Source: Lachnospiraceae bacterium | GTDB lineage: Bacteria; Bacillota; Clostridia; Lachnospirales; Lachnospiraceae | Length of the DNA stretch: 64,000 nucleotides | NCBI GenBank assembly: GCA_017436305.1 | Contig: JAFSDJ010000087.1 | Location: forward strand, 62,001-126,000 | Direction of reading: 5' to 3' | Part shown: piece after piece, positions 10,872-23,569 of the stretch | Position numbering within the stretch: position 1 is the stretch's first letter | How the letters are laid out: the number at the start of each line of letters is the position of its first letter | Notes under the pieces: generated by a model | What the model saw: the letters and a program-made list of their open reading frames with translations, nothing else | What the model was told of the DNA's origin: nothing | Database searches by the model: none | Made by a program: the position numbers and the translations under genes

Positions 10872-10924
10872 AAAGCAAATAAAACAACACCACCTAGCAA
10901 TCGGGCTATGTGAAGGACTAATTG

Positions 10925-10957
10925 GAGTCAGTTATCGAAAGGTAATTGGCTCTTTTT
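10925..10957 (+). terminator. Intrinsic terminator or attenuator in the late leader
   Basis: gagtcagttatc (10925-10936) pairs along all 12 positions, including four G-U pairs, with ggtaattggctc (10941-10952) across a GAAA tetraloop, followed by TTTTTGTTT. It sits between the likely late promoter and the small terminase gene, so late transcripts must read through it. Confidence 0.65.
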
Positions 10958-10980: not shown

Positions 10981-11496
10981 AGGGCAAAAGGAAAGTATCA
11001 GGAGTGGCTTGAACCGGAAAAGTTAATATTGATTGAAGGCTGGGCCCGAAATGGGCTCACGAAGGAAGATATTGCACATAATATGGGCATTGGTCTCACT
11101 ACCTTGAAAGAATGGTGTAAAAAGTATCCGCCCATTTCGACCGCCTTAAAAAACGGAAAAGAAGTAGCAGATATTAGGATGGAAAATGCACTTTATGAAC
11201 GTGGATTAGGTGGTATTCATGAAGTAAAGAAAACCTTTAAATTAAAGCATACCTATTATGATAAACAAGGCAGAAAGTGTGAGAAAGAAGAGCTTGTTAC
11301 GGGAACTGATGAGGTATATGTTCCGGGAGACACAACAGCACAAATCTTCTGGCTCAAAAACCGCAAACCGGAAGAATGGAGAGATAAGAGAGAGTTTGAG
11401 AACAAAGTCGAACTAGAGTCTGATGGATTTCTTGAAGCTCTAAAAGGAGAAGTAAAGGACACTTTCAAAGAGGCGGGTGATATTGTTGAAACGTAA
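10981..11496 (+). CDS. terS: Terminase small subunit, apparent AGG start
   Basis: A 171-residue DNA-binding subunit of the packaging motor. The family start (M)AKGKYQEWL...GWARNGLTKEDIAHNMGIGL is present, but its first codon is AGG at 10981 where ATG is expected. An in-frame TGA lies at 10972. The next usable codon (TTG 11029) would cut off 16 conserved residues. GAGAGGATGTGAG precedes it. The helix-turn-helix (EDIAHNMGIGLTTLKEW) lies at about residues 27-43; the C-terminal half is charged. It overlaps the large subunit by 11 nt. Function is well supported; the AGG start is inferred. Confidence 0.85.
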   Translation, partial: RAKGKYQEWLEPEKLILIEGWARNGLTKEDIAHNMGIGLTTLKEWCKKYPPISTALKNGKEVADIRMENALYERGLGGIHEVKKTFKLKHTYYDKQGRKCEKEELVTGTDEVYVPGDTTAQIFWLKNRKPEEWRDKREFENKVELESDGFLEALKGEVKDTFKEAGDIVET

Positions 11497-12811
11497 AGCT
11501 CTATTCAAGTTCAGCAATTTCAGCCGAAAACAGAAGATGGTCCTTGAATGGTGGGTAGAGGGTTCTCCCTATGCGGATAAAGATGGAATTATATGTGACG
11601 GTTCTATCCGTTCCGGCAAGACCACAGTAATGTCCTTGTCATTTGTAATGTGGGCGATGGAAAACTTTGACGGAGAAAATTTTGCCCTGTGTGGGAAAAC
11701 TATCCAGTCCTTACGCCGCAACGTGATTAAGCAACTCAAATTAATGCTAAAATCACGAGGATACGAGGTAACAGAGCATCGGTCTGAAAACTACATGACA
11801 ATCCAGTTGGGAGATGTAGAAAATGACTTTTATCTTTTTGGTGGTAAAGACGAAGGATCCCAAGATTTAATTCAGGGTATTACTTTAGCAGGCGTGTTCT
11901 TTGATGAAGCTGCACTTATGCCTGAGTCATTTGTCAATCAGGCAACCGGACGTTGTTCTGTAGAATGCTCTAAATTCTGGTTCAACTGCAACCCTGAAGG
12001 ACCGGAGCATTACATCAAGACAGAATGGATTGATAAGATAACAGAAAAGAATCTTATTAGGATCCATTTCACTATGCGGGACAATCCCAGCCTTGCCGCC
12101 AGGATTATTGAACGTTATGAGCGGATGTACAAGGGCGTATTCTATGACCGTTTTATACTTGGTTTGTGGGTGCTTGCGTCAGGCATCATATTCCGCTATT
12201 TTGCAGAAAATGACAGTCCATATCTGTTTAAGGATGAAGATATATTTGACTCAAGAGGAAAACTGAAAGTGGCATTTAGCAAAATAGTTATGGGAATTGA
12301 CTTTGGAGGAAATGGCTCCAAAACAACATTCTGTCTCACAGGCTACATGAACGGATATAAAAACTTCCGTTTGCTGGAGGAGGATGGATTACCCATAACA
12401 GAGGATATTGATGCAAAGGCAATCTGTGACAAATTTGTTGAATTTTACAGAATGGCAATAGAAAAGTATGGTCGTGTAGACTGGATATTCCCGGATTCGG
12501 CAAGTACTACAATGATTAACTCGTTAAGGAGTGCGGCAATTGAAGCCGGATTATATTCAGGAAATATAAAGGGCTGCAGAAAGAATGAAGTATCGGAACG
12601 CCCCAAAACCATTGATTTGTTGTTAAATTCGGGGCGATTGAAAATAAATGAAAGATGCACACAAGTCAGAAAAGCAATCGCTTCTTTGAGATGGGATGAG
12701 AAGAAACCGGATATTCCGGAGGATAAGAACATAGGAAACGTGAATGACTGGTGGGATGCGTTCTGCTATACCCTACTGGATTTCATAGAATTTATTGATT
12801 TAAACAGATAG
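11486..12811 (+). CDS. terL: Terminase large subunit
   Basis: A 441-residue packaging ATPase/nuclease of the PBSX type. The ATPase has GSIRSGKTTVMSLS (Walker A, about residues 37-50) and GVFFDEAALMPESF (Walker B with catalytic Glu). The nuclease domain begins at VMGIDFGGNGSKTT with the first metal-binding Asp (about residue 272) and continues with WIFPDSASTTM. TTG 11486 is chosen because LKRKALFKFSNFSRKQK matches the family start and GGCGGGTGAT is well placed; GTG 11477 is an alternative. It acts with the small subunit and portal to fill the capsid. Confidence 0.92.
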   Translation: MKRKALFKFSNFSRKQKMVLEWWVEGSPYADKDGIICDGSIRSGKTTVMSLSFVMWAMENFDGENFALCGKTIQSLRRNVIKQLKLMLKSRGYEVTEHRSENYMTIQLGDVENDFYLFGGKDEGSQDLIQGITLAGVFFDEAALMPESFVNQATGRCSVECSKFWFNCNPEGPEHYIKTEWIDKITEKNLIRIHFTMRDNPSLAARIIERYERMYKGVFYDRFILGLWVLASGIIFRYFAENDSPYLFKDEDIFDSRGKLKVAFSKIVMGIDFGGNGSKTTFCLTGYMNGYKNFRLLEEDGLPITEDIDAKAICDKFVEFYRMAIEKYGRVDWIFPDSASTTMINSLRSAAIEAGLYSGNIKGCRKNEVSERPKTIDLLLNSGRLKINERCTQVRKAIASLRWDEKKPDIPEDKNIGNVNDWWDAFCYTLLDFIEFIDLNR

Positions 12812-12823
12812 GAGAGGATAAGA

Positions 12824-14230
12824 AGGAAAGAATGTGCGAAAGTCTATTTAAACAAATTAGGATATGCAGTAAATGGAGATGCTCTGGCCATTATTCAGAA
12901 ATGCGATAACTGGTATTCTAACAGAGTGGACGAAGATTTTCACAGAAGAAAAAATCTCAATAATGTGGAATATGAGTTAAGCCAGATGAACTTTGCGAAA
13001 AGATGCTGCGCTGACGATGCTAATTTGTGCGAAATCGTATCAGTTGCACCGGTACAAGAATCTGCTTCACAGGAGTTTATTGATAAGCTTCTGCAAAAGA
13101 ACCGTTTTAATGTACGCTATCGGGAACAGCTGGAGAAAACATCAGCAACCGGAACAGTAGGTGCATATATTTACCTACAAAATGCCAAGTATCTGGAATA
13201 TCCGGATACAAAACGCGTAAAAGTCAGAGGCGGAGATATACGCATTAACTACGTGGAAGCAGATTGTATAATACCACTGACTGTAGAGAACAGCCTTGTT
13301 ACAGAATGCGCCTTTTGTGCCACAAATAAGGTTAAGGGAAAGGATAAGACCACTCTTGTTATTTTCACGCAAAAAGAGGGTAAATACAAAGCAGAAACGA
13401 TATATTTTGACGAGCATGGGCGACAGATAGATTCCGAATCAAGTTCCATCCAGTTGGGAGAGGTAAAACCATTCTCCATAATGACGAATGCAGAAGTAAA
13501 TAACCTTGATAATATGGAGGGATACGGACTGCCAAAGATTTATAATGTGATTCCAATGTTTAAGGCATTAGATTTGTGTTATAACGTGCTATTTTCGGAC
13601 CTTTCAAAGGCAGATAAAATAGTGTTACTCAATGAAGCACTTTGCTCGATTAAAAGTAAGGACGGAAAACCAGAGCTAACACCGGAACAAAAAGAAATAT
13701 TTATTCTGTTGGGAGAAAAACTACCTACAGAAAAATCTCTCATACAGGAATATAATCCGGAAATCAGGGTGGATGAGATAACAAAAGCCTTTGAGTTGGT
13801 GCTTTCGTTAATATCGCTAACCTTTGGATATGGCACTAAAAAGTACACATTTGAAAACGGACAGATAAAGACAGCAACAGAATATATTGGCGCACGTCAG
13901 GATGCCATGCAGGAGCTGAACAAACAACGAAAGAATGCTACAGATTACATTAGCGATATAATTCATGCAGCCATGTGGTTTTCAAACCAGTTTCAGGGAA
14001 CAAATTACAATACAGAAGAAGAACTGTCCATAGAATTTGATGATTCCTATGTTGAAGATAAACAAACAAAGCTGGAGAGCATGCGTGCAGATGCAGTTAC
14101 ATTTCAAGAGATTCCATGGCTGACCTTTATGTATATTAAAACAAAGTACAATTTGTCCGATGAGGAAGCAGAGAAATATATCAACGAGGGCAAGATGCGC
14201 GAAGAGCCAATAGATGATTTAGAAGATTAA
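12824..14230 (+). CDS. Portal protein, apparent AGG start
   Basis: A 468-residue SPP1 gp6-like portal: the dodecameric ring through which DNA enters the head. MNFAKRCCADDANLCEIVSV, the EADCIIPLTVENSLVTECAF region and the acidic C-terminus are family-typical. Reading from AGG 12824 gives KECAKVYLNKLGYAVNGDAL before the residues starting at GTG 12926. That stretch matches the expected portal N-terminus, so starting at GTG would lose 34 residues. AGGAGAGG ends 6 nt before the AGG. The frame is closed upstream by TAG 12809. The family assignment is strong; initiation at AGG is inferred. Confidence 0.85.
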   Translation, partial: RKECAKVYLNKLGYAVNGDALAIIQKCDNWYSNRVDEDFHRRKNLNNVEYELSQMNFAKRCCADDANLCEIVSVAPVQESASQEFIDKLLQKNRFNVRYREQLEKTSATGTVGAYIYLQNAKYLEYPDTKRVKVRGGDIRINYVEADCIIPLTVENSLVTECAFCATNKVKGKDKTTLVIFTQKEGKYKAETIYFDEHGRQIDSESSSIQLGEVKPFSIMTNAEVNNLDNMEGYGLPKIYNVIPMFKALDLCYNVLFSDLSKADKIVLLNEALCSIKSKDGKPELTPEQKEIFILLGEKLPTEKSLIQEYNPEIRVDEITKAFELVLSLISLTFGYGTKKYTFENGQIKTATEYIGARQDAMQELNKQRKNATDYISDIIHAAMWFSNQFQGTNYNTEEELSIEFDDSYVEDKQTKLESMRADAVTFQEIPWLTFMYIKTKYNLSDEEAEKYINEGKMREEPIDDLED

Positions 14231-14247
14231 TTAAGGGTGGTGATATA

Positions 14248-15960
14248 AGGGCTTTATCAGAAGCACAAATGGATATTTTAATCGATAAATATATAACAGG
14301 ACTTTACCAGCAGATGGAAGATGAAGTTATCGCTGATATTGCCCGCAGAGTAAAAAAGACAGGACGTTATACCGAAACTGCCGAGCTTATGGCTAAATCC
14401 ATGCATGAACAGGGATATTCCACAGCAAAAATACAGGCGGAAGTAATGAAAAAACTAAATGCGGATGCAGGCTATCAGAAGGCAGTTGCAGAGAATACAA
14501 AAGCGCACAAAGCCGAGATACAGAAAATTATTGAAGAAACAGTAAAAGAAGCAAAGGAAGCAGGAAAAACTCTGATAGCGGAAGCCGGCAATATGGCATG
14601 GAATAATGACCTTTCCATGTGGCAGCAGTACGGAGAAGATTTAACGAAGCCAAACAGCCTGAGCAAGTTAATAAAAGCTTTCCAAGCACAGACAGCGGGC
14701 GCACTTAAAAACCTTACAAAAACAACCGGCTTCAAAAACACACTGTTAGGAACAACCGGAGTAATGAATGCCTATCAGCGAGAGTTGGATTTGGCACTGC
14801 TAAAAGTAGCAACCGGAACATTCTCCTATGATCAGGCAGTAAATGACTGTATACACAGACTTGCTCAAAGCGGATTAAGGGCTATTGATTATGCCAGTGG
14901 AAGAACATATCAGTTAGATACAGCGGCCAGAATGTGTGTAAGAACAGGCTTAAGCCAGCTATCCGGCAAAATCATGGAAGAAAACCTGAAACAGTCAGGA
15001 CAGGACCTTGTTATCACATCACAGCACATGGGCAGCAGACCGGAACATGTACCTTGGCAGAATAAAGTTTTTTCCTATTCCGGAAAAAATAAAAAGTATC
15101 CTGATTTTTTTAAAGAAACAGGCTATGGAACAGCAGGAGGATTAAAAGGTGTAAACTGTACTCATGACTTTTACCCGTTCTGGGAAGGTGCCAGCGTTAT
15201 CCCGGATGATATTCAGGAGCCACCGCCAAAAACGATAAATGGAAAAGAATACACCTATTACCAGACTAACCAACAACAGAGAAGAATGGAGCGCAATATC
15301 AGAGCCACCAAAAGGGAGCTGGAAGCACAGAGGAATTTGGGTGGGGATACAACCCAGCTAAAGGCAAAGCTAAAAAAGCAGATGTCGGATTACAGGGCAT
15401 TCAGCAAGGCAGCAGGGCTAAGAGTAAAAGATAACAGGCTTAGGATGCCAAGTGGAACAAGTAATTTGAGTAGGACAAAAGCTACGAAGTACTATAATTC
15501 GCTTGTAAAATCAAACAGCCATGATATAATTAAATCAACACCGAAAGAGCCAGTTATAGGAAACGATAATTTTCGCATTACCAAATCAAAGTTTTTGAAA
15601 GCAGCTTATGAAGATATTAAGGAATTGAGGTATTCCCTATCAAATTTAGATGTTCGAATATGGTATAAAGCAAAGGATGCAGATATTATAAACATTATCG
15701 ATAAAACATTGCCGATAGAAGAACAGGCAAAACAAGCATGTGAATTGCGAAATACCTATAGAACACAAGCAAGAGAATTAATGAGAGACCAGGAAAAGAG
15801 AAAATCATTGGATAGAGATCATCCTAATGTTGAGTTTGAAGATTTGGTGAAGGACAAAATGGAGAGAAAAGGTATGACACGTGAAGAAGCATTAAGAGAT
15901 ACAATAAGTACGTCTGGGAAAACAAATAAAAAAGTTGATAATTCGTTAGGATTGGAGTGA
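14248..15960 (+). CDS. Minor capsid protein (Phage_min_cap2) with toxin-like C-terminal domain, apparent AGG start
   Basis: A 570-residue head morphogenesis protein. Residues about 210-320 hold the min_cap2 core (VITSQHMGSRPEHVPWQNK, GYGTAGGLKGVNCTHDFYPF). A helical linker follows, and from about residue 425 a distinct A/T-richer domain begins (IRYSLSN-like to KTNKKVDNSLGLE), with LRNTYRTQARELMRDQE and KMERKGMTREEAL. That tail resembles polymorphic-toxin modules fused to phage head proteins. AAGGGTGGTGAT is well placed for AGG 14248 (expected MALSEAQMD); ATG 14269, seven codons later, is an alternative start. The stop overlaps the next gene as ATGA. Confidence 0.8.
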   Translation, partial: RALSEAQMDILIDKYITGLYQQMEDEVIADIARRVKKTGRYTETAELMAKSMHEQGYSTAKIQAEVMKKLNADAGYQKAVAENTKAHKAEIQKIIEETVKEAKEAGKTLIAEAGNMAWNNDLSMWQQYGEDLTKPNSLSKLIKAFQAQTAGALKNLTKTTGFKNTLLGTTGVMNAYQRELDLALLKVATGTFSYDQAVNDCIHRLAQSGLRAIDYASGRTYQLDTAARMCVRTGLSQLSGKIMEENLKQSGQDLVITSQHMGSRPEHVPWQNKVFSYSGKNKKYPDFFKETGYGTAGGLKGVNCTHDFYPFWEGASVIPDDIQEPPPKTINGKEYTYYQTNQQQRRMERNIRATKRELEAQRNLGGDTTQLKAKLKKQMSDYRAFSKAAGLRVKDNRLRMPSGTSNLSRTKATKYYNSLVKSNSHDIIKSTPKEPVIGNDNFRITKSKFLKAAYEDIKELRYSLSNLDVRIWYKAKDADIINIIDKTLPIEEQAKQACELRNTYRTQARELMRDQEKRKSLDRDHPNVEFEDLVKDKMERKGMTREEALRDTISTSGKTNKKVDNSLGLE

Positions 15961-16208
15961 TGATAGTGTTTACCTACCCTATTTGTAATGTAGCAGATGA
16001 AAATATTTTTCAGAAACAGTGTATGGCAATTGAAAAGTATCTGAACCCTTTGGAGAAAGGGACACTTATAGAAGATGTAGACGGTTCAAAAATACAGTCT
16101 TATACATTTGGAAAACACAAAGTAACAGTCAAAAACAGCATGTATACAAATGAGGTGTATGTTGAGAGCGACATTGATATAAAACCTTATTTTGCAAAGA
16201 ATTCATAG
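15960..16208 (+). CDS. Small protein, possible immunity partner of the capsid-toxin tail
   Basis: An 82-residue protein whose ATG overlaps the stop of the minor capsid gene. It is A/T-rich like the 3' end of that gene. MIVFTYPICNVADENIFQKQ and a YTFGKHKVTVKNSMYTNEVYVE strand-rich part suggest a small alpha/beta protein. It replaces nothing known in the morphogenesis order, so cargo status is likely. Immunity to the fused toxin-like domain is an inference from position only. Confidence 0.45.
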   Translation: MIVFTYPICNVADENIFQKQCMAIEKYLNPLEKGTLIEDVDGSKIQSYTFGKHKVTVKNSMYTNEVYVESDIDIKPYFAKNS

Positions 16209-16256
16209 GTGCTTTTTTAGTATGGTTAGCGATATGAAGAAAGAGTAATTTTATTC

Positions 16257-16285
16257 TTGCAAATTATTTACTTGTGATTTATAAT
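16257..16285 (+). promoter_or_regulatory. Sigma-A promoter inside the late operon
   Basis: TTGCAA (16257-16262), 17-nt spacer, perfect TATAAT (16280-16285). It would start transcription near 16292, just before the 44-codon gene and the tRNA. A strong constitutive-type promoter within a phage late operon is unusual. Confidence 0.75.
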
Positions 16286-16309
16286 GTGAGCATGAACAGG
16301 GGAATAAGT

Positions 16310-16444
16310 ATGGAGACGGCTGATAAAAAAGTCATGGAGGCTATTTGGAAAATAGTCAATCGAGGCGGCAACGCAGAGGTAAAACGAAAGAAAGACGGTA
16401 CCCTGGTTGTCTATGAGGTTAAAAAGAATATAGTCGCATCATGA
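16310..16444 (+). CDS. 44-residue conserved phage protein
   Basis: ATG 16310 follows AGGGGAATAAGT. The product, METADKKVMEAIWKIVNRGG then EVKRKKDGTLVVYEVKKNI, belongs to a small family often found between minor capsid and scaffold genes of clostridial phages. It lies directly behind the sigma-A promoter, so it may be expressed in the lysogen. A terminator follows 23 nt after its stop. Function unknown. Confidence 0.6.
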   Translation: METADKKVMEAIWKIVNRGGNAEVKRKKDGTLVVYEVKKNIVAS

Positions 16445-16467
16445 AGTGGCATGATGTTAGAGCTAAT

Positions 16468-16511
16468 AGGAGCTGGTATGTAAAAATTTTTTGCATGCTA
16501 GCTCCTTTTTA
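16468..16511 (+). terminator. Intrinsic terminator between the small gene and the tRNA
   Basis: aggagctggtatg (16468-16480) pairs with catgctagctcct (16494-16506) over 13 positions with two G-U pairs, followed by TTTTTAT. It would end transcripts from the promoter at 16257, so tRNA expression must come from readthrough or another promoter. Confidence 0.7.
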
Positions 16512-16591
16512 TTTGGCTGTTATCCAACATAAACCAATGTTCATATTCCTAGTTTCCTTAAATTGACCGTCAAATCCTAGAGGCGGTCTCA

Positions 16592-16662
16592 GGCGGATTA
16601 GTGTAATGGTAGCACGTCAGTCTCCTTAGCTGATAGTGGGGGCTCAATTCCCTCATCCGCAA
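16592..16662 (+). tRNA. tRNA with anticodon CCU and mismatched 1:72 position (initiator-like)
   Basis: A complete cloverleaf. Acceptor 16592-16598 with 16655-16661 has six pairs plus a G1 x A72 mismatch. D stem GTGT/GCAC (16601-16604, 16612-16615). Anticodon stem 16617-16621 with 16629-16633 (last pair U-G). Loop CTCCTTA with anticodon CCT at 16624-16626. T stem GGGGG/CCCTC and loop CTCAATT. Discriminator A at 16662; CCA is not encoded. CCU reads AGG. A non-paired 1:72 is the main formylation determinant of bacterial initiator tRNAs, but the three G-C anticodon-stem pairs of initiators are absent and U37 is odd. It lies among late genes, several of which have AGG at their starts. Confidence 0.82.
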
Positions 16663-16712
16663 TTCCCATATCGCAGAAAGTGCGATTAAATAAATTATTT
16701 TAGGAGGACATT

Positions 16713-17315
16713 ATGAAGAATATATTTGAAATCATGAAAGAGTACGGTCTTGAAGTGCCGGAAGACAAAAAGAAAGAATTTGAGAAAGTGGTTCTAGATA
16801 ATTATAAGACCGTAACAGACTACGACAACCAAACCGAGAAGCTGAATAAGGCAAATGATACTATCAAGGCAAACGATATTGCTATTGAAAATTTGAAAAA
16901 AGACTTGGAAGGCTTCAAAGATGTGGATGTGACTGCTCTAAATCAACGCATTTCTGATTTAGAAAAAGAGAAAGAGACAATAAAACAGGATTATGACAAT
17001 AAGATTGCAGAGCGTGATTTCAACGACATTCTGAAAGATGCAATTTCTTCTGCAAAAGGCAAAAATGCAAAAGCAATTACCGCTTTGCTTGACATGGAGA
17101 CCTTAAAGGCTTCAAAGAACCAGAAAGAGGATATAGCCGCAGCACTTAGAACCTTATCAGAGGCAGAGGATAGTAAAATGTTATTTGGAGAACCTGAACC
17201 GGATGAAGTCGGAGAGGGCAATCCAATTGGAGCCGTAAAAAAAGGTGGAAATCAAAGTGACGATGCTGCTATGCGTGCAGCAATGGGATTGCCACCGGTA
17301 CAAGAACAGAAATAG
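16713..17315 (+). CDS. Phage scaffolding protein (GP20-like)
   Basis: A 200-residue protein preceded by TTAGGAGGACATT. It is almost entirely helical, with a long coiled coil (about residues 40-105: NKANDTIKAND, LNQRISDLEKEKETIKQDY) and a Gly/Pro-rich C-terminus (EPEPDEVGEGNPIG). This is the usual layout of GP20-type scaffolds, which guide capsid assembly and leave before maturation. The position directly before the capsid gene agrees. Confidence 0.85.
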   Translation: MKNIFEIMKEYGLEVPEDKKKEFEKVVLDNYKTVTDYDNQTEKLNKANDTIKANDIAIENLKKDLEGFKDVDVTALNQRISDLEKEKETIKQDYDNKIAERDFNDILKDAISSAKGKNAKAITALLDMETLKASKNQKEDIAAALRTLSEAEDSKMLFGEPEPDEVGEGNPIGAVKKGGNQSDDAAMRAAMGLPPVQEQK

Positions 17316-17327
17316 GAGGAAAAATAA

Positions 17328-18197
17328 ATGTCTAATACAATTGCTTTAGCTAAAAATTACACAAGTCTGTTAGATGAGGTGTACAGAAGCGCTTCAGTAA
17401 CAGCGGATTTAACATCAGATCCAAAACTGTCACGAGCAGGTGCTAATGCAAATGAGATTATTTATCCGCAGATTACAGTAAGCGGTCTGGGAGAGTATGA
17501 TCGTAACACCGGATATACCACAGGAGCAGTTGACCTGAAATGGAAGACAGCCACGTTTAATTATGACAGAGGCACAAGAATCTCTGTAGATGTAATGGAT
17601 AATGAGGAATCCAGAAACTTAGCATTTGGAATGGCTGGGGCTACCCTTATGCGTGAGAAGGTTGCACCAGAAGCAGACGCTTTTACTTTTGCGACATTAG
17701 CCGCATTAGAGAACATTTCTAAGGCTACTGGAACAATTGAAAATGCGATACAGTTTTTAGACGCATTGCTCACTGCATGGTCTAAGATGGATGAGGACGA
17801 AGTTCCACAGGAAAACCGTATTCTTTACGCTACAGCTACCATGTTGAATAGCGTAATGGCACTGGATACCACCAAATCAAGAGAAATTCTCGGCAAGTTC
17901 GCAATTAAGAAGGTCGTACCTCAAGCAAGATTCTACACTGCAATTGACATGCTGGACGGCAAAACTCCCGGTGAGGAAGCAGGTCATTATCAGAAAGCAG
18001 AATCTGGTGCGGACATCAACTTTATGATTGTACATAAGCCGGCAATCATCAAATTTGATAAACACACAGTTAGTAATATTATTCCGGCAGCATCCAATTC
18101 GAATGCAGATGCAGATATTGTTAAATATCGCAAATATGGTATCGTGGACGGATATGCTAACAAACGTGCCGGTATTTATTTGAACAGTAAAGCGTAG
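17328..18197 (+). CDS. Major capsid protein
   Basis: A 289-residue protein with strong AGGAGGAAAAATA site. The pattern YPQITVSGLGEYDRNTGYTTG, then RGTRISVDVMDNEESRNLAFG and a long helix, followed by a domain ending in YGIVDGYANKRAGIYLNSK, matches HK97-fold major capsid proteins of clostridial siphoviruses. It uses an ordinary ATG, unlike several neighbours, which matters when judging the AGG starts. Confidence 0.85.
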   Translation: MSNTIALAKNYTSLLDEVYRSASVTADLTSDPKLSRAGANANEIIYPQITVSGLGEYDRNTGYTTGAVDLKWKTATFNYDRGTRISVDVMDNEESRNLAFGMAGATLMREKVAPEADAFTFATLAALENISKATGTIENAIQFLDALLTAWSKMDEDEVPQENRILYATATMLNSVMALDTTKSREILGKFAIKKVVPQARFYTAIDMLDGKTPGEEAGHYQKAESGADINFMIVHKPAIIKFDKHTVSNIIPAASNSNADADIVKYRKYGIVDGYANKRAGIYLNSKA

Positions 18198-18207
18198 GAG
18201 GTAGCAT

Positions 18208-18426
18208 ATGAGAACAGTAGGAGTAGGTGCTAAAAAGAAATCCAATGAACTGGATGAGTTAAAAAAAGCAAATAGTGAGTTAGAGGCGAAGCTTGCCGAG
18301 GCCATAGCATATGCCGAAGCCAGAGACAAGCAAATTGAGGAGTTAGAGGCGAAGCTTGCAAAACAGGAGAAAGCAGCTAAGCCCTCAAAGTCTGAAGAAA
18401 AGAAAGAAGCAGCAACAGAGAAATAG
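18208..18426 (+). CDS. Short coiled-coil protein with internal repeat
   Basis: A 72-residue protein after AGGAGGTAGCAT. A heptad coiled coil is built from two ELEAKLA units; at DNA level a 20-nt exact repeat occurs at 18277-18296 and 18340-18359. The end is Lys/Ala/Glu-rich. Short proteins of this kind often follow capsid genes and may decorate or bridge head components, but the role is unknown. Confidence 0.55.
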   Translation: MRTVGVGAKKKSNELDELKKANSELEAKLAEAIAYAEARDKQIEELEAKLAKQEKAAKPSKSEEKKEAATEK

Positions 18427-18446
18427 GAATGGAGGGGAGTTTGTAA

Positions 18447-18806
18447 ATGCCACAGATTGTAGATTGGGAGTATTACAGCTCCCTTTTCTCAAAGGTTCCG
18501 GAAGCAGAATTTAATAAAGCGGAGTGCCTGGCAGAAAAAGAAGTAATGCGCGTGATTGGTCCCATCCGTTGGGCTAATATCACGGAAGATACTTTTGGAT
18601 ATGAGCAGTTAAAGGACTGTATCTGTAATGTCATTGATAAAATGACCGAAGATAATAAGTCAGGCAAAGGAAAAGGAGTTTCTTCCGTCAATAATGATGG
18701 ATATTCCGTCAGTTATGTAGTACAGACAGAAGAACAGCTAAGAAGCGAATTGCAGAGTTCAATCAAGAACTGGTTGAGCGGAACAGGATTGGTAGGTGCA
18801 TACTGA
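18447..18806 (+). CDS. Head-tail connector protein (gp6-like)
   Basis: A 119-residue protein after GGAGGGGAGTTTG. EYYSSLFSKVPEAEFNKAECLAEKEV at the start and a helical ring-forming fold fit DNA-packaging/connector proteins of the HK97 gp6 type, which bind below the portal. It is in the expected place after the capsid gene. Its TGA shares its A with the AGG at 18806 (TGAGG), exactly the position where a TGATG overlap would be expected. Confidence 0.75.
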   Translation: MPQIVDWEYYSSLFSKVPEAEFNKAECLAEKEVMRVIGPIRWANITEDTFGYEQLKDCICNVIDKMTEDNKSGKGKGVSSVNNDGYSVSYVVQTEEQLRSELQSSIKNWLSGTGLVGAY

Positions 18807-19171
18807 GGGAACCATTTAACGATACAGTCACAATCTACAACAAAATAACAGATACCAACTGGAGCAGAACTGTTGTGGATGGAGTGCAATGGACAGATAA
18901 AACGGAGAAACAAAATAACAACGGTAAAATCAGTATAGCCCGCTACGCTTCTATTACCTTCCCGGAAGGCACTTATGAAGGCTTACTGCTAAATACATCA
19001 AATGAAGAAGATTGTATCGTATTTGGGGCTGTTGAGGACGTTGTGGAGGGTGTAAAAGGTAAACGTATTTCCGACCTAATGAAAAAATACCCAAAATCAG
19101 GTCTCATCAAGTCGGTTAATGATAACACAAACCGGGAGTTTTTAAAGAATATTAAGGTGGTGGTTGCGTAA
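18806..19171 (+). CDS. Head-tail adaptor / minor capsid protein, apparent AGG start
   Basis: A 121-residue protein. Reading from AGG 18806 gives EPFNDTVTIYNKITDTNW, the family N-terminus, followed by GVQWTDKTEK and ARYASITFPEGTYEG. The first ATG/GTG/TTG in frame is GTG 18875, losing 23 residues; a CTG lies one codon before the AGG. TAGGTG precedes it. The gene end shares one base with the next AGG. It belongs to the minor capsid proteins that close the head after packaging. Confidence 0.75.
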   Translation, partial: REPFNDTVTIYNKITDTNWSRTVVDGVQWTDKTEKQNNNGKISIARYASITFPEGTYEGLLLNTSNEEDCIVFGAVEDVVEGVKGKRISDLMKKYPKSGLIKSVNDNTNREFLKNIKVVVA

Positions 19172-19581
19172 GGGCTGGAATACATGAATATACGACCCCA
19201 AAAGGGGAGTTTTACGAAACCAAGTTAGAAAATGGAAAGATAACGTTTGGAATTAGATGGAATCCGGAATTCGGTCCTAAATTATCGAAAACATTAAATT
19301 CCGCTCAAGAATTTGTTGATACAGAATGTTTGAGACGTTGCGAAGACAATGTTCCACAAGATGCTAACATATTGATTGAAAGTGGGATATTAAACACACA
19401 AATCGGAAGCGGAGAAGTAAAGTATCGGACTCCATATGCTAGGCGTTGGTATTATATGCCTGCTAAGTTTAAAGAAGCTCCCAAACGTGGGAATTACTGG
19501 TTTAAAAGGATGGTTTCCGAAAATAGAGAGCAAATTTTAAAAGGTGCCCAAAGAATAATCAAACAACAAATGGGAGGATAA
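19171..19581 (+). CDS. HK97 gp10-like / minor capsid protein, apparent AGG start
   Basis: A 136-residue protein of the head-tail joining set. From AGG 19171 it reads AGIHEYTTPKGEFYETKL, FGIRWNPEFGPKLSK and FVDTECLRRCEDNVP, all family-typical. The first ATG/GTG/TTG in frame is TTG 19330, which would remove 53 residues including the whole first domain. AAGGTGGTGG lies 10 nt upstream and the previous TAA overlaps it as TAAGG. This is one of the clearest cases for AGG initiation in the window. Confidence 0.78.
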   Translation, partial: RAGIHEYTTPKGEFYETKLENGKITFGIRWNPEFGPKLSKTLNSAQEFVDTECLRRCEDNVPQDANILIESGILNTQIGSGEVKYRTPYARRWYYMPAKFKEAPKRGNYWFKRMVSENREQILKGAQRIIKQQMGG

Positions 19582-19582
19582 C

Positions 19583-19996
19583 ATGACTATTTCAAAATAC
19601 ATAGTAGATTTTTTAAAAGAAGTATGTGGAATCGAAATAGAGACCAATCACGTAAAAGATGGCTCGGACCAGTACGGTCTTTTCAAATCTCCTACACGAG
19701 ATGTAAAAGAAAACATTGACCCAAGCTATCAGATTACAGAATACTACCAGTTCTTGGCAAGGCTCGATTCTTTATCTGACAGCGAAAGAAAAGAAGCGGA
19801 CGAAGTCCTTGAAGATTTAACATATAAACTGGATGATTATAAAATTAATTATCATTATCCGGACATAGATAAAAACAGAAGAGTAACAGATATTACAGTA
19901 ACAGGCTGTCCATATCCAATGGAAGCAGATGAACAGAACACAATGTATCAGATGTCGTTATCTATAACTTATTCACGAGAAAGAGAGGTTTTATAA
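19583..19996 (+). CDS. Tail completion / tail terminator-like protein
   Basis: A 137-residue protein preceded by GGGAGGATAAC and beginning at ATG one base after the previous gene. ISKYIVDFLKEVCGIEIETN at the start and a beta-rich end (VTGCPYPMEADEQNTMYQMSLSI) fit the small proteins that cap the tail tube. The assignment rests on order and general shape. Its TAA is followed at once by the AGG of the next gene. Confidence 0.6.
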   Translation: MTISKYIVDFLKEVCGIEIETNHVKDGSDQYGLFKSPTRDVKENIDPSYQITEYYQFLARLDSLSDSERKEADEVLEDLTYKLDDYKINYHYPDIDKNRRVTDITVTGCPYPMEADEQNTMYQMSLSITYSREREVL

Positions 19997-20476
19997 AGGG
20001 AAAGACTGAAAAAATTTAAAACAATTCCATTTTTGAATATCAAAGATACAGACACGCCGCAGTGGGCAAGGATTGGTAAATCTACAATATTTGATTTATT
20101 AGTAAATGCGCAGACAGAGGAAAATGATTTTATTGAGGATGAGATGCCAACCACGGAAGTAATATCCTATAAGCCGTCATTAGCACAGGAACTGCAGTGT
20201 AATAAAGGAGATGCGGCTTTTGATTATTTGTATGATATGTTCTACAACCTTCCAACAGGCGAAGATGTAAAAAAGAACCTTCTTATTGTTTTTGCCGGTA
20301 ATCAGGGTACGGATGACGCACCGGAATTTAGAGCATGGAGTACGACTTCTACTTTAACTTTGGAACATCTTAATACTGTAGAAGAAAAGATTTATTTCAG
20401 CTTCAACATCAACAAAATCACACGTGGCACAGTCACTATAACAGACGGGAAACCGACATTTACAGGAACAGAGTAA
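19997..20476 (+). CDS. Tail tube protein-like, apparent AGG start
   Basis: A 159-residue protein in the major tail protein position. From AGG 19997 it reads ERLKKFKTIPFLNIKDTDTP; the first ordinary start, TTG 20033, would drop 12 residues. AGAGAGG lies 8 nt before the AGG. The strand-rich body (EVISYKPSLAQELQCNKGD, EFRAWSTTSTLTLEHLN, KITRGTVTITDGKPTF) fits a tail tube subunit with an immunoglobulin-like or tube fold. Confidence 0.68.
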   Translation, partial: RERLKKFKTIPFLNIKDTDTPQWARIGKSTIFDLLVNAQTEENDFIEDEMPTTEVISYKPSLAQELQCNKGDAAFDYLYDMFYNLPTGEDVKKNLLIVFAGNQGTDDAPEFRAWSTTSTLTLEHLNTVEEKIYFSFNINKITRGTVTITDGKPTFTGTE

Positions 20477-20492
20477 CAGGAGGATGTAAAGA

Positions 20493-20882
20493 ATGGTATA
20501 TACAATTATTGTTAATAACAGAAGCTATGACCTGCCAAAGAAAACATTGGCCTTAGCAGAAAAACTGGATAGTGTTTTAAAGGTGGATTCGGTAAAAGGA
20601 TATACCGTAAGACAGAAATACCAGAAGCTTCACGATTTTATGAAGGAACTGGTGGGAGAGGATAATGCAGCAGAAATGTTTGGCAGCGAAGACCTGTCAG
20701 AGATTGATTTGTCAGAGCTTACACTGGCAGTGAGAAAGGTAGTAGATGCCTATGACAAGCCGGTAGCTGACTACTCTATGGAGAAGAACAGAGAAAAAAT
20801 TGAAAGTCTCCCGATTGAAAAGCTTATCTCTGTAACGAAAGCGGCACAAGCAGTTTCAAACGCAGAGATGATGAAAAAATGA
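20493..20882 (+). CDS. Tail assembly chaperone-like protein
   Basis: A 129-residue helical protein after CAGGAGGATG. It lies between the tail tube gene and the Gp15 gene, where siphoviruses encode the first tail assembly chaperone. It begins with a short beta hairpin (YTIIVNNRSYDLPKK), then helices. It overlaps the Gp15 gene by 4 nt. In many phages the two chaperones are made by frameshifting; here they are separate coupled genes. Confidence 0.65.
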   Translation: MVYTIIVNNRSYDLPKKTLALAEKLDSVLKVDSVKGYTVRQKYQKLHDFMKELVGEDNAAEMFGSEDLSEIDLSELTLAVRKVVDAYDKPVADYSMEKNREKIESLPIEKLISVTKAAQAVSNAEMMKK

Positions 20883-21415
20883 TGGACTTGACAAAAAAAG
20901 CCTTGCCAAATGTCATTGAGATAGATGGCAGGGCTTATTCTATATACACAGACTTCAGACTCTGGATGCGGTTTGAAATAGAAGTAGGGAAGTTAAAAAA
21001 AGGTCAGAAGATGGATGTATCGTATCTTTTTAAAAATGAGATACCTGACAGAGTATCTTTGGAGAATTTACTAACCTTCAGCAGACCGTATTCGCCACTT
21101 CCAAGAAGCACAGGCGGTTCTGGTGAAATCGTATTTGATTATGAGTTAGACGCTGATTACATATATGCTGCCTTTTTAGGACAGTATGGCATAGATTTAA
21201 TGGAAATTGAAGAATTGCACTGGTACAAATTCTTAGCATTGTTTAAAGGCTTAAATGGCAGTAGCAAACTTGCAGAAATAATGTCCTACAGGTGCTATAC
21301 GAAAACTAAAGACGTATCGGACCAGTATGAGAAGTTGAAGTATGCATGGCGAATTGAAAGAGTCGAGCCGGAGGATGAAGAAGAAATACAGAAATTTAGT
21401 GATTTATTTTATTAA
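20879..21415 (+). CDS. Gp15-family bacteriophage protein (second tail chaperone)
   Basis: A 178-residue protein of the Gp15 family. IEIDGRAYSIYTDFRLWMRFE at the start and the YIYAAFLGQYGIDLMEI...LHWYKFLALFKGL core with a final YRCYTK segment are characteristic. These proteins precede the tape measure gene and are thought to help tail assembly. There are two consecutive ATG codons (20879, 20882); the stop of the previous gene overlaps them. Confidence 0.8.
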   Translation: MMDLTKKALPNVIEIDGRAYSIYTDFRLWMRFEIEVGKLKKGQKMDVSYLFKNEIPDRVSLENLLTFSRPYSPLPRSTGGSGEIVFDYELDADYIYAAFLGQYGIDLMEIEELHWYKFLALFKGLNGSSKLAEIMSYRCYTKTKDVSDQYEKLKYAWRIERVEPEDEEEIQKFSDLFY

Positions 21416-21430
21416 GTGAGGGAATAACGA

Positions 21431-23569
21431 AGGGCTGATGGAAGCTTAATTTTTGATACAAAACTGGATAGTAAAGGGATTGTAAGCGGCATACAAGGCT
21501 TAAGCTCCACACTTGGGAACGTAGCAGGTACCGGTCTGAAAGTCTTTACCGCCGGAGTAGGGGCAGCAGCAACCGGAGTAACAGCTCTCGGAACGGCAGC
21601 AGTTAAATCCTATGCGGATTATGAACAGTTGGCTGGTGGCGTTGAGACCCTTTTTGGAGCAGGTGGACAATCTGTAGAAGAATACGCTGATACGGTAGGA
21701 AAATCAGTAGCGGAAGTACAGGAAGAATACAATGCCCTGATGGAAGCACAGGGAGAAGTATTTAAAAATGCTGCAGAAGGGTATAAAACTGCAGGGCTTT
21801 CTGAAAATGAGTACATGGAAACCATCACCAGCTTTGCAGCTTCCTTAAAGCAAAGCTGTGATAGTGAGCTTGAAGCAGCAGAGGCAGCAGACCAAGCAGT
21901 CATTGATATGGCAGATAATGCAAACAAAATGGGTACCAGCATGGAGCTCATTCAAAATGCTTATCAGGGATTTGCAAAGCAGAATTACACCATGCTTGAT
22001 AACCTGAAGCTTGGTTATGGTGGTACAAAAGAGGAAATGGCGCGCCTGCTGGAAGATGCTGAAAAGCTTACCGGTATTAAATACGACATCAACAATTTGA
22101 GCGATGTTTATTCCGCGATTCATGTTATACAGGATGAGCTTGGTATAACCGGAACAACAGCCAAAGAAGCCAGCTCGACCATATCAGGAAGTCTCAGTAT
22201 GGTAAGTGCTTCCTGGTCTAACCTGCTTACTGCAGTTGCTGATGAAAATGCAGAATTTGATACTTACGTAGATGATTTTGTGGATAGCGTAGCGGTAGCT
22301 GCCGAGAATATTCTGCCAAGAGTAGAAGTAGCCATAAATGGGGTTGGAAGCCTGATAGAATCGCTTTTCCCGGTTATCATGGATAGGATTCCGGAGATAA
22401 TTGACAGTGTTCTTCCTAATCTGGTCCAGTCCGGGATAAATATTATAAGCTATTTAATGGAGGGTATCAGTACTAACCTTTCCACACTAACAGAGTCTTT
22501 ATTTGAGATAGCCGGAATGCTCATGGAAGGTTTCGTTGAAACCTTTCCGGAATTTATTCGGATAGGAATGGAAATGATTTCTTCCATCTTGTCCGGAATA
22601 GTGGAGAATATGCCACTAATTATGGAGAATATCAGTATTGCATTTAGCAGTATCGGAGAAAGTATTACCAGTTGTTTGCCGGAAATTATTAGGATGGGTG
22701 GACAAATCATTCTTCAACTGGTTCTCGGAATTGCCGGGGCGTTGCCACAATTAATAGAAGCAGCCGCACAGATGATACTTGAATTGTCTTTGGGGCTGGC
22801 AGATGCGTTACCGGAGCTGATACCGGCAGTGGTGGATATTGTTCTACAAGTAGTGGAAACACTAATTGATAACATAGACCTTTTAATCGACGCAGCTATC
22901 GCTCTTATTGAGGGGCTGGCAGAAGGACTAATCGCAGCATTGCCTAAACTTATCGAAAAAGTACCGCTAATTCTTGCAAAATTAACGACTGAAATTATTA
23001 ATAACGCAGGAAAATTAGTAGTGGCAGCCCAAGCACTGATAGACAGTCTTGTCAATGGAATAATGGAGAGCCTTCCGGAATTACTGGAAAGTGCAAAAAA
23101 AGCAACGGAGAGTACTAAGGAATATTTTCTTCAGGGGTTTGCTGGTCTTGTAGATGTTGGAACTTATGCGGTAGAAGGTATCTGGCAAGGTATTTCAAAT
23201 GGTTATGACTGGATATGCGGAAAACTAAGCGGCTGGGTAGACAATGTACTTGCATGGATAAAAAAGAAATTTGGAATTCATTCTCCATCTACACTTATGC
23301 GTGATGAGGTAGGTAAATATCTTGCACAGGGTGTATTTGTAGGATTTGAGGAAGAGGACCCTATGGGAATGATAGAGGATTCCTTAAGTCATACATGGGG
23401 TAATTTGCAGACAAGCTTTACTGCTAAAGCTCAGGCACAGGCGCTTTCAGTAAATTATGGAAAGTTGGGGGATGCGCTTGCTAATTCATTAGAAAAATCC
23501 GGTCTGACAATACAGATTGGAGAAAGAGAATTCGGTCGTGTTGTCAGAAAGGTAGTAAGTTATGGTTAA
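21431..23569 (+). CDS. Tape measure protein, apparent AGG start
   Basis: A 712-residue tail length-determining protein. From AGG 21431 it reads ADGSLIFDTKLDSKGIVSGI and a Gly/Ala-rich helix that leads into YADYEQLAGGVETLFG. The next ordinary start, TTG 21629, would remove 66 residues that are standard at the start of this family. GTGAGGG lies 8 nt before the AGG. Hydrophobic segments and repeated amphipathic helices (about residues 290-520) are visible, then FGIHSPSTLMRDEVGKYLAQG, the usual C-terminal motif. Inside the gene AGG is used normally as Arg (for example IIRMGG), so it is not reassigned in elongation. Confidence 0.85.
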   Translation, partial: RADGSLIFDTKLDSKGIVSGIQGLSSTLGNVAGTGLKVFTAGVGAAATGVTALGTAAVKSYADYEQLAGGVETLFGAGGQSVEEYADTVGKSVAEVQEEYNALMEAQGEVFKNAAEGYKTAGLSENEYMETITSFAASLKQSCDSELEAAEAADQAVIDMADNANKMGTSMELIQNAYQGFAKQNYTMLDNLKLGYGGTKEEMARLLEDAEKLTGIKYDINNLSDVYSAIHVIQDELGITGTTAKEASSTISGSLSMVSASWSNLLTAVADENAEFDTYVDDFVDSVAVAAENILPRVEVAINGVGSLIESLFPVIMDRIPEIIDSVLPNLVQSGINIISYLMEGISTNLSTLTESLFEIAGMLMEGFVETFPEFIRIGMEMISSILSGIVENMPLIMENISIAFSSIGESITSCLPEIIRMGGQIILQLVLGIAGALPQLIEAAAQMILELSLGLADALPELIPAVVDIVLQVVETLIDNIDLLIDAAIALIEGLAEGLIAALPKLIEKVPLILAKLTTEIINNAGKLVVAAQALIDSLVNGIMESLPELLESAKKATESTKEYFLQGFAGLVDVGTYAVEGIWQGISNGYDWICGKLSGWVDNVLAWIKKKFGIHSPSTLMRDEVGKYLAQGVFVGFEEEDPMGMIEDSLSHTWGNLQTSFTAKAQAQALSVNYGKLGDALANSLEKSGLTIQIGEREFGRVVRKVVSYG

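Follow-up and report, generated by a model that had tools for sequence, protein, structure and literature searches.

In a prophage carried by a Lachnospiraceae bacterium, seven genes for virion proteins have AGG where the homologous genes of relatives have ATG, and the late operon that holds them also encodes a single tRNA with the anticodon CCU, which reads AGG and is built in large part like a bacterial initiator. The stretch analysed, here called the window, comprises 64,000 nucleotides of contig JAFSDJ010000087.1. From the comparison of this region with its relatives, we consider it very likely that tRNA and codon form a natural initiator tRNA(CCU)/AGG start pair of the prophage, which would serve its virion genes. 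An earlier note on this DNA had proposed that AGG is used as a start codon here, and this idea gains strong support from the comparative evidence and from the initiator-type tRNA; the tRNA itself, absent from that note, is what we regard as the key. The pairing raises several questions. Are these AGG codons starts at all, or bystanders upstream of ordinary ones? Is the tRNA an initiator or an elongator for a rare codon? And why would a phage place virion proteins under such a codon?

Seven AGG codons and a tRNA in the late region

The seven genes, all on the plus strand, encode the terminase small subunit (terS; 10981..11496, phrog_309), the portal protein (12824..14230, phrog_533), a minor head protein (14248..15960, phrog_581), a small protein of the head-tail region (18806..19171, phrog_3366, a family of unknown function), a gp10-type minor head protein (19171..19581, phrog_556), the tail tube protein (19997..20476, phrog_3099 and the major tail protein family phrog_820) and the tape measure protein (21431..23569, phrog_6900 and phrog_58). 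The AGG codons stand exactly where they had been reported, and moving to the next in-frame ATG, GTG or TTG would cost 16, 34, 7, 23, 53, 12 and 66 codons, respectively, in agreement with the list of open reading frames (ORFs). The described overlaps of stop and start are also present, as TGAGG from 18804 (the 18806 gene) and TAAGG from 19169 (the gp10-type gene), and the AGG of the tail tube gene directly follows an in-frame stop. PHROGs matches back five of the gene names proposed earlier and, weakly, that of the tail tube; the product of the 18806 gene, called 'head-tail adaptor' in the note, matches an unnamed family alone. The claim that the other late genes and all early genes use ATG is mostly right, except that GTG is listed for the large terminase gene and for one early gene or more. 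Seven of the 15 late genes listed start at AGG and their eight neighbours at ATG or GTG, ATG being the start of the major capsid gene (17328..18197, plus strand). For early ORFs, those in the 20 kb preceding the window included, ATG or GTG candidates are available and no AGG start is needed (one doubtful early ORF has its ATG at codon 26). The seven AGG genes and the eight neighbours read open by table 11, with no in-frame stop read through.

What could read AGG at the start of a gene? ARAGORN finds one tRNA gene in the window (Rfam, run on bases 1-40000, agrees), at 16592..16662 on the plus strand, inside the late operon, flanked by the minor head and scaffold genes. Its anticodon is CCT in the DNA, from which ARAGORN names it tRNA-Arg. 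Bacterial initiator tRNAs are marked by the lack of a Watson-Crick 1:72 pair, which serves formylation and exclusion from elongation, by three G-C pairs in the anticodon stem, by an R11:Y24 pair and by the anticodon CAU. The acceptor end of the window tRNA has a G1.A72 mismatch followed by G2:C71, C3:G70 and G4:C69, with A73. All 14 CCU phage tRNAs in our collection are mismatched at 1:72, and G2:C71, C3:G70 and A73 are likewise present in 14 of 14. Among the first 11 different CCT tRNAs (1:72 mismatched in 11/11), 93.9% of all cloverleaf cells are paired, the mismatches counted in. The phage elongator tRNA-Arg(CCU) of two other loci (L208 and L276) have paired 1:72 ends, as does, read by eye, the separate tRNA-Arg(CCT) of the host, with G1-C72 and with GGA in the D loop. 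Excerpts of PMC11497404 state that the unusual 1:72 pair is needed for formylation.

A covariance model (R1) built from 11 CCU/CCT phage tRNAs only, and applied to 397 genomes from the host family, addresses the overall build. It returned 30 loci: two phage CCT tRNAs and 28 tRNA-Met(CAT) with the initiator arm GGGCTCATAACCC, so that 28 of the 28 non-phage loci are host initiator tRNAfMet. The window tRNA, a member by construction, scores 83.6 bits against 37.8 for the host tRNA-Arg(CCU). Overall, the CCU phage tRNAs thus appear more similar to initiator than to elongator tRNAs.

Which amino acid might such a tRNA carry? Methionine identity in the anticodon lies in C34, A35 and U36, of which the CCU tRNA loses A35 only. 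For bacterial arginine identity, the available part of PMC9976931 lists A20 as the main determinant, C35 and U/G36, with G2:C71 and C3:G70 in the set. The window tRNA has C35 and U36 through its anticodon and U20 in place of A20; an A after the D-loop GG occurs in just one of the 14 tRNAs, that of L053 (D loops read by eye). Both identity sets appear to be partly present.

Co-occurrence of AGG starts and the CCU tRNA across phages

Relatives were gathered by the major capsid protein (80 viral and 36 genome loci) and by the portal (ten loci, nine under new ids). Alignment to relatives, which the earlier note had proposed as a check, places AGG at the homologous start, with ATG in some relatives. 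Separately assembled contigs with the same AGG starts have portal proteins 53-73% and minor head proteins 65-78% identical to those of the window. The homologous start of terS is AGG in L085 and GTG in L082/L007. The portal also has AGG in L001, L115, L017, L081, L085, L086, L124 and L235, and the minor head protein in L001, L115, L017, L081, L124 and L235, with an in-frame stop immediately before it in L001 (L117), L081, L115 and L235. For the gp10-type gene AGG is found at the equivalent place in L081, where an ATG three codons on lacks a Shine-Dalgarno (SD) site, and in L235; for the tail tube in L001, L009, L081 and L235; and for the tape measure in L001, L081, L096, L005, L009, L086, L085, L235 and L055. 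The pattern extends beyond the families of the earlier note, as the major capsid gene starts at AGG in L081, L085, L017/L009 and L235. In the 18806 gene, which has AGG in L009 too, an identical run of 20 bases precedes AGG in the window and ATG in L108. Because of these shared 20 bases and the AGG at homologous starts in relatives, AGG at these positions is more than chance.

Does AGG follow the tRNA? With lineages merged where contigs belong together (L017+L009; L051+L053+L211+L055; L115+L096), we count an AGG tape measure in 12 of 13 CCU lineages, L083 being the exception, and an AGG portal in 9 of the 11 in which the portal is visible. An automatic rule applied to 15 gene families, after dropping 13 duplicate or near-duplicate rows and excluding matches below 30% identity or starting after residue 12, calls AGG at the homologous start in 31 of 109 cases in 14 CCU loci (24/94 excluding the window; one call, the L083 scaffold, is spurious) against 4 of 206 in other loci. 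Per locus, at least one AGG is called in 11 of 14 CCU loci against 4 of 99 others; the 11 include L083, spurious on sight, as well as L096 and L115, two contigs of one metagenome-assembled genome. Two loci with AGG, L009 and L124, end short of the tRNA site and for these reasons were set aside as not covering it; counted with the other loci, they would bring the calls there to 9/216. Over 1500 bases L009 is 100% identical to the CCU-carrying L017. The group in which no CCU tRNA was seen includes other short contigs whose tRNA slot is not covered. The four control calls fall in L023, L028, L029 and L030, and the two that were inspected (the large terminase gene of L023 and the scaffold of L028) are misalignments with an ATG a few codons on. 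The rule also errs in the other direction, calling the gp10-type gene of L081, the portal of L115 and the tube of L009 canonical where reading by SD gives AGG. No AGG start was called in the relatives whose equivalent slot holds a CAU tRNA (L108, L125) or an odd remnant (L119). On the capsid tree, CCU, CAU and no-tRNA-seen phages are intermingled, so decoding states seem to change quickly.

The stretches that would be lost by starting downstream carry a signal of their own. Nonsynonymous-to-synonymous ratios (pN/pS) from AGG to the next canonical start, calculated for six genes, are 0.10 for terS, 0.14 for the tube, 0.27 for the portal, 0.32 for the minor head protein (few sites) and 0.37 for the 18806 gene, that is, 0.10-0.37 in five of the six; the tape measure gives 0.65 overall owing to indels, and about 0.25 in the best-aligned pair. 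These N-terminal stretches are under purifying selection. A count that uses no homology agrees: AGG is the codon with the best SD context in 19 of 190 ORFs in CCU loci and in 3 of 150 in close tRNA-less relatives (p = 0.003). In loci with CAT tRNAs, SD-preceded AGG occurs in 0 of 399 ORFs, a control which may partly reflect other hosts with weaker SD use, the 3/150 being the fairer one.

Can the phages be found from the tRNA alone? Viral contigs were searched for the 5' half of the tRNA, leaving the anticodon free. Seventy-two tRNA calls hold this pattern: 60 are CAT, seven CCT and five other. Three of the CCT phages, L235, L220 and L264, are new from this anticodon-blind search, with 7, 7 and 1 late AGG starts, and the protein families were checked for ten of the proteins concerned. 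In L235 the AGG starts belong to terS, portal, minor head protein, capsid, gp10, tube and tape measure. In L220, whose portal, protease and capsid belong to PHROGs families different from those of the window, they belong to terS, portal, protease, capsid, a tail protein, the tape measure and one gene best matching an endolysin family, each preceded by a purine-rich SD-like stretch. In L264 the tape measure starts at AGG directly after a stop. In L297, a relative of L220 that is cut before the tRNA site, AGG stands at portal, protease and tube. The phages picked out only by their tRNA, one of which has unrelated head genes, fit the AGG pattern as well. A match in L210 was rejected, not being a tRNA.

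Several further observations concern these tRNAs and their surroundings. Phage-encoded initiator-type CAT tRNAs are frequent (L213-L285; the 60 of 72 pattern matches), and 56 of the 60 are mismatched at 1:72 by script reading. The CAU tRNA in the same slot of L108 (L108:9294-9366) has a paired C1-G72 end, unusual for an initiator, and the slot of L119 (L119:13669-13740, and also in L120) holds an odd or decayed tRNA, its anticodon loop seemingly of eight bases, in a phage that uses ATG starts. A second tRNA-like gene (Ala, CGC; ARAGORN) adjoins the CCU tRNA of L220 (L220:1104-1176, minus strand). Matches to the gut-2 RNA (RF02990) lie in the window at 10888-10935, just upstream of terS, and at 16433-16480, about 110 bases upstream of the tRNA, the second just below the gathering score; a skipping-rope RNA (RF02924) is found at L086:8839-8935, about 340 bases upstream of the CCU tRNA of that locus.

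Mechanism, rival explanations and purpose

How would the pair work? The CCU tRNA would be made from the late region during lytic growth, aminoacylated and formylated by host enzymes, and would enter the P site of the 30S ribosomal subunit through initiation factor 2 (IF2), like tRNAfMet, to pair with AGG start codons behind ordinary SD sites. The seven virion genes would then be translated from their true N-terminus, with early and other late genes starting at ATG or GTG. We infer expression, charging and formylation of the tRNA, and initiation at AGG itself, from the sequences. Excerpts of PMC10158994 report that initiator tRNAs with many anticodons initiate in vitro, and that in vitro initiation factor 3 (IF3) tolerates none but Watson-Crick pairs at the first two codon bases. 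Because of this demand of IF3, AGG should need CCU and not CAU.

Several points weigh against an AGG-reading initiator. The window tRNA lacks the three initiator G-C pairs in its anticodon stem, which has A29:U41, G30:C40 and U31:G39; the full G:C triplet 29-31:39-41 is found in 0 of 14 CCU tRNAs, with G30:C40 in 12 and C30:G40 in the other two, those of L083 and L086, and according to the part of PMC11497404 available an engineered 30:40 swap reduces initiation. The initiator R11:Y24 is replaced by U11:A24 in the window, and over the 14 tRNAs the pair is U:A in nine, A:U in four and C:G in one. Model R1 recovers its own members by construction, and in the stretches searched of the window's own genome it also scores a tRNA-Gly at 53.3 and a Met tRNA at 52.2 bits. 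Across phages, L083 carries a CCU tRNA (566-639), yet its visible genes, the tape measure included, start at canonical codons, and L051, L053 and L211 show ATG/GTG starts only in the genes covered. The last three fall into a lineage having AGG through L055, 95-97% identical to the CCU-bearing L053 and L051 in the overlap, whose tape measure starts at AGG after AAGGAGGTG; their own AGG tape measure is thus inferred from a locus that does not cover the tRNA site. Finally, the CCU tRNA is rare: in samples of 392 and 398 genomes, a pattern covering one branch of the tRNA family only matches exactly in no genome but that of the window. Scanning these two samples by pattern revealed no other CCU prophage, viral contigs held no match to a pattern for the anticodon arm of the L086 type, and no CCU tRNA was seen in the stretches searched of named phage records with related capsids (parts of three of five; 31 matched). 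Among these named phages, Ruminococcus phage RG-TP1 was considered as a hidden-AGG candidate from its annotated gene gaps and rejected, as its tape measure has an ATG with an SD site.

Could the tRNA be an ordinary elongator tRNA-Arg(CCU) for a rare codon, the AGG starts being read weakly by host fMet-tRNA through strong SD sites? The name given by ARAGORN suggests so, and C35, U36, G2:C71 and C3:G70 belong to the bacterial arginine set as listed in PMC9976931. We find this very unlikely, however, as the 1:72 position is mismatched in every one of the 14 tRNAs and paired in the elongators of L208, L276 and the host, A20 is absent in 13 of the 14, and R1 finds tRNAfMet and not tRNA-Arg. A role in codon supply was considered and rejected: the internal frequency of AGG in late genes, 4.7 per 1000, matches the 4.5 of the host, so supply does not call for the tRNA, and the host already has a tRNA-Arg(CCU). 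Weak initiation by the host tRNA is opposed by the rejection of mismatches at codon bases 1 and 2 by IF3 in vitro (PMC10158994, in the part available), and AGG start calls in control loci proved to be misalignments where inspected. That the true starts are the canonical codons 7 to 66 codons downstream, with the AGG codons as bystanders, we judge extremely unlikely: such codons do exist, but the stretches they would skip are conserved as protein in five of the six genes, their first residue coincides with that of ATG-started relatives, and in several genes the AGG directly follows an in-frame stop and has its own SD site. Least of all do we believe in a sequencing or assembly error, or in modified bases at start codons having been read as G. 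The window does come from a draft assembly of 107 contigs, but identical AGG starts turn up in numerous contigs that were assembled separately and stem from public collections of viruses and genomes, as well as in a phage whose head genes are unrelated, and errors would neither hit start codons alone nor track the anticodon of a tRNA.

If AGG and the CCU tRNA do work together, what is gained? In the most likely case, the making of virions requires the tRNA, itself a late product: its gene is located within or next to the late region, and AGG recurs at the start of two essential virion genes. We tentatively propose, at somewhat less than an even chance, a naturally evolved orthogonal initiation in which AGG starts on virion genes, most of all on the tape measure, make particles dependent on the phage's own tRNA. 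Such proteins may begin with formyl-arginine rather than formyl-methionine, and the system may sustain virion production when defence RNases destroy host tRNAfMet, or deny virion proteins to cells or satellites without the tRNA. The serious alternative, quite plausible though we would not bet on it, leaves the mechanism as it is and removes the purpose: once a CCU initiator existed, starts would have drifted between ATG and AGG, and the tRNA would have become needed by a ratchet. Drift is favoured by the variation of AGG use between genes and close relatives (the capsid has ATG in the window and AGG in the 84% identical L081) and by the mixing of CCU, CAU and no-tRNA-seen phages on the capsid tree, whereas the confinement of AGG to the late region of the window phage and its recurrence at the same essential genes (tape measure in 12/13 CCU lineages, portal in 9/11 where visible) speak against it.

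Novelty and comparison with known systems

To our knowledge, the start codons of bacteria and their viruses are taken as read by one kind of initiator tRNA, with the anticodon CAU. Among the matches listed in our searches of the open-access literature, a scope which leaves most subscription papers and preprints outside, there was no report of AGG starts or non-CAU initiator tRNAs in phages. A natural non-CAU initiator with a matching start codon would amount to codon reassignment at initiation instead of elongation, and gene finders would overlook the portal, capsid and tape measure genes of these phages or cut them short. It raises the question whether natural protein synthesis can start with an amino acid other than methionine. 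Synthetic biology would gain an orthogonal start signal without having to design one, and one could see cleanly whether changes in decoding serve phages to time virion production or to evade tRNA-cutting defences.

How does the pair relate to what is known? The CCU tRNAs share the 1:72 mismatch, G2:C71, C3:G70, A73 and the overall fold with bacterial tRNAfMet and the initiator-type CAU tRNAs of phages, 60 of whose CAT tRNAs have the same 5' half. The anticodon of the CCU phage tRNAs differs from the initiator's CAU, the anticodon-stem G-C pairs are partly kept, and U11:A24 is found in 9 of 14. Initiators engineered to carry an amber or other anticodon, as described in the available parts of PMC13232202 and PMC10158994, rest on the same principle, an initiator body with a new anticodon giving initiation at the matching codon; those are laboratory-made, whereas the CCU tRNA is natural and matched by AGG starts in the same genome. 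In phages that recode TAG or TGA with suppressor tRNAs, a phage tRNA that changes decoding is likewise tied to late structural genes, and excerpts of PMC9523058 suggest that alternative coding prevents early expression of structural genes. As in those phages, the change is limited to late genes here, but in-frame stops and a suppressor tRNA are missing: the only tRNA found in the window is the CCU tRNA, no stop is read through, and it is initiation at a sense codon, and not elongation, that would be altered. The nuclease-resistant phage tRNAs treated in PMC10264068, in whose reference list an initiator-cleaving VapC figures, offer a last parallel, as far as the part of that paper available goes, in that the phage supplies a substitute for a host tRNA exposed to possible cleavage by defences; in those phages the protection comes from mutations in the loop, whereas here anticodon and start codons would have changed together.

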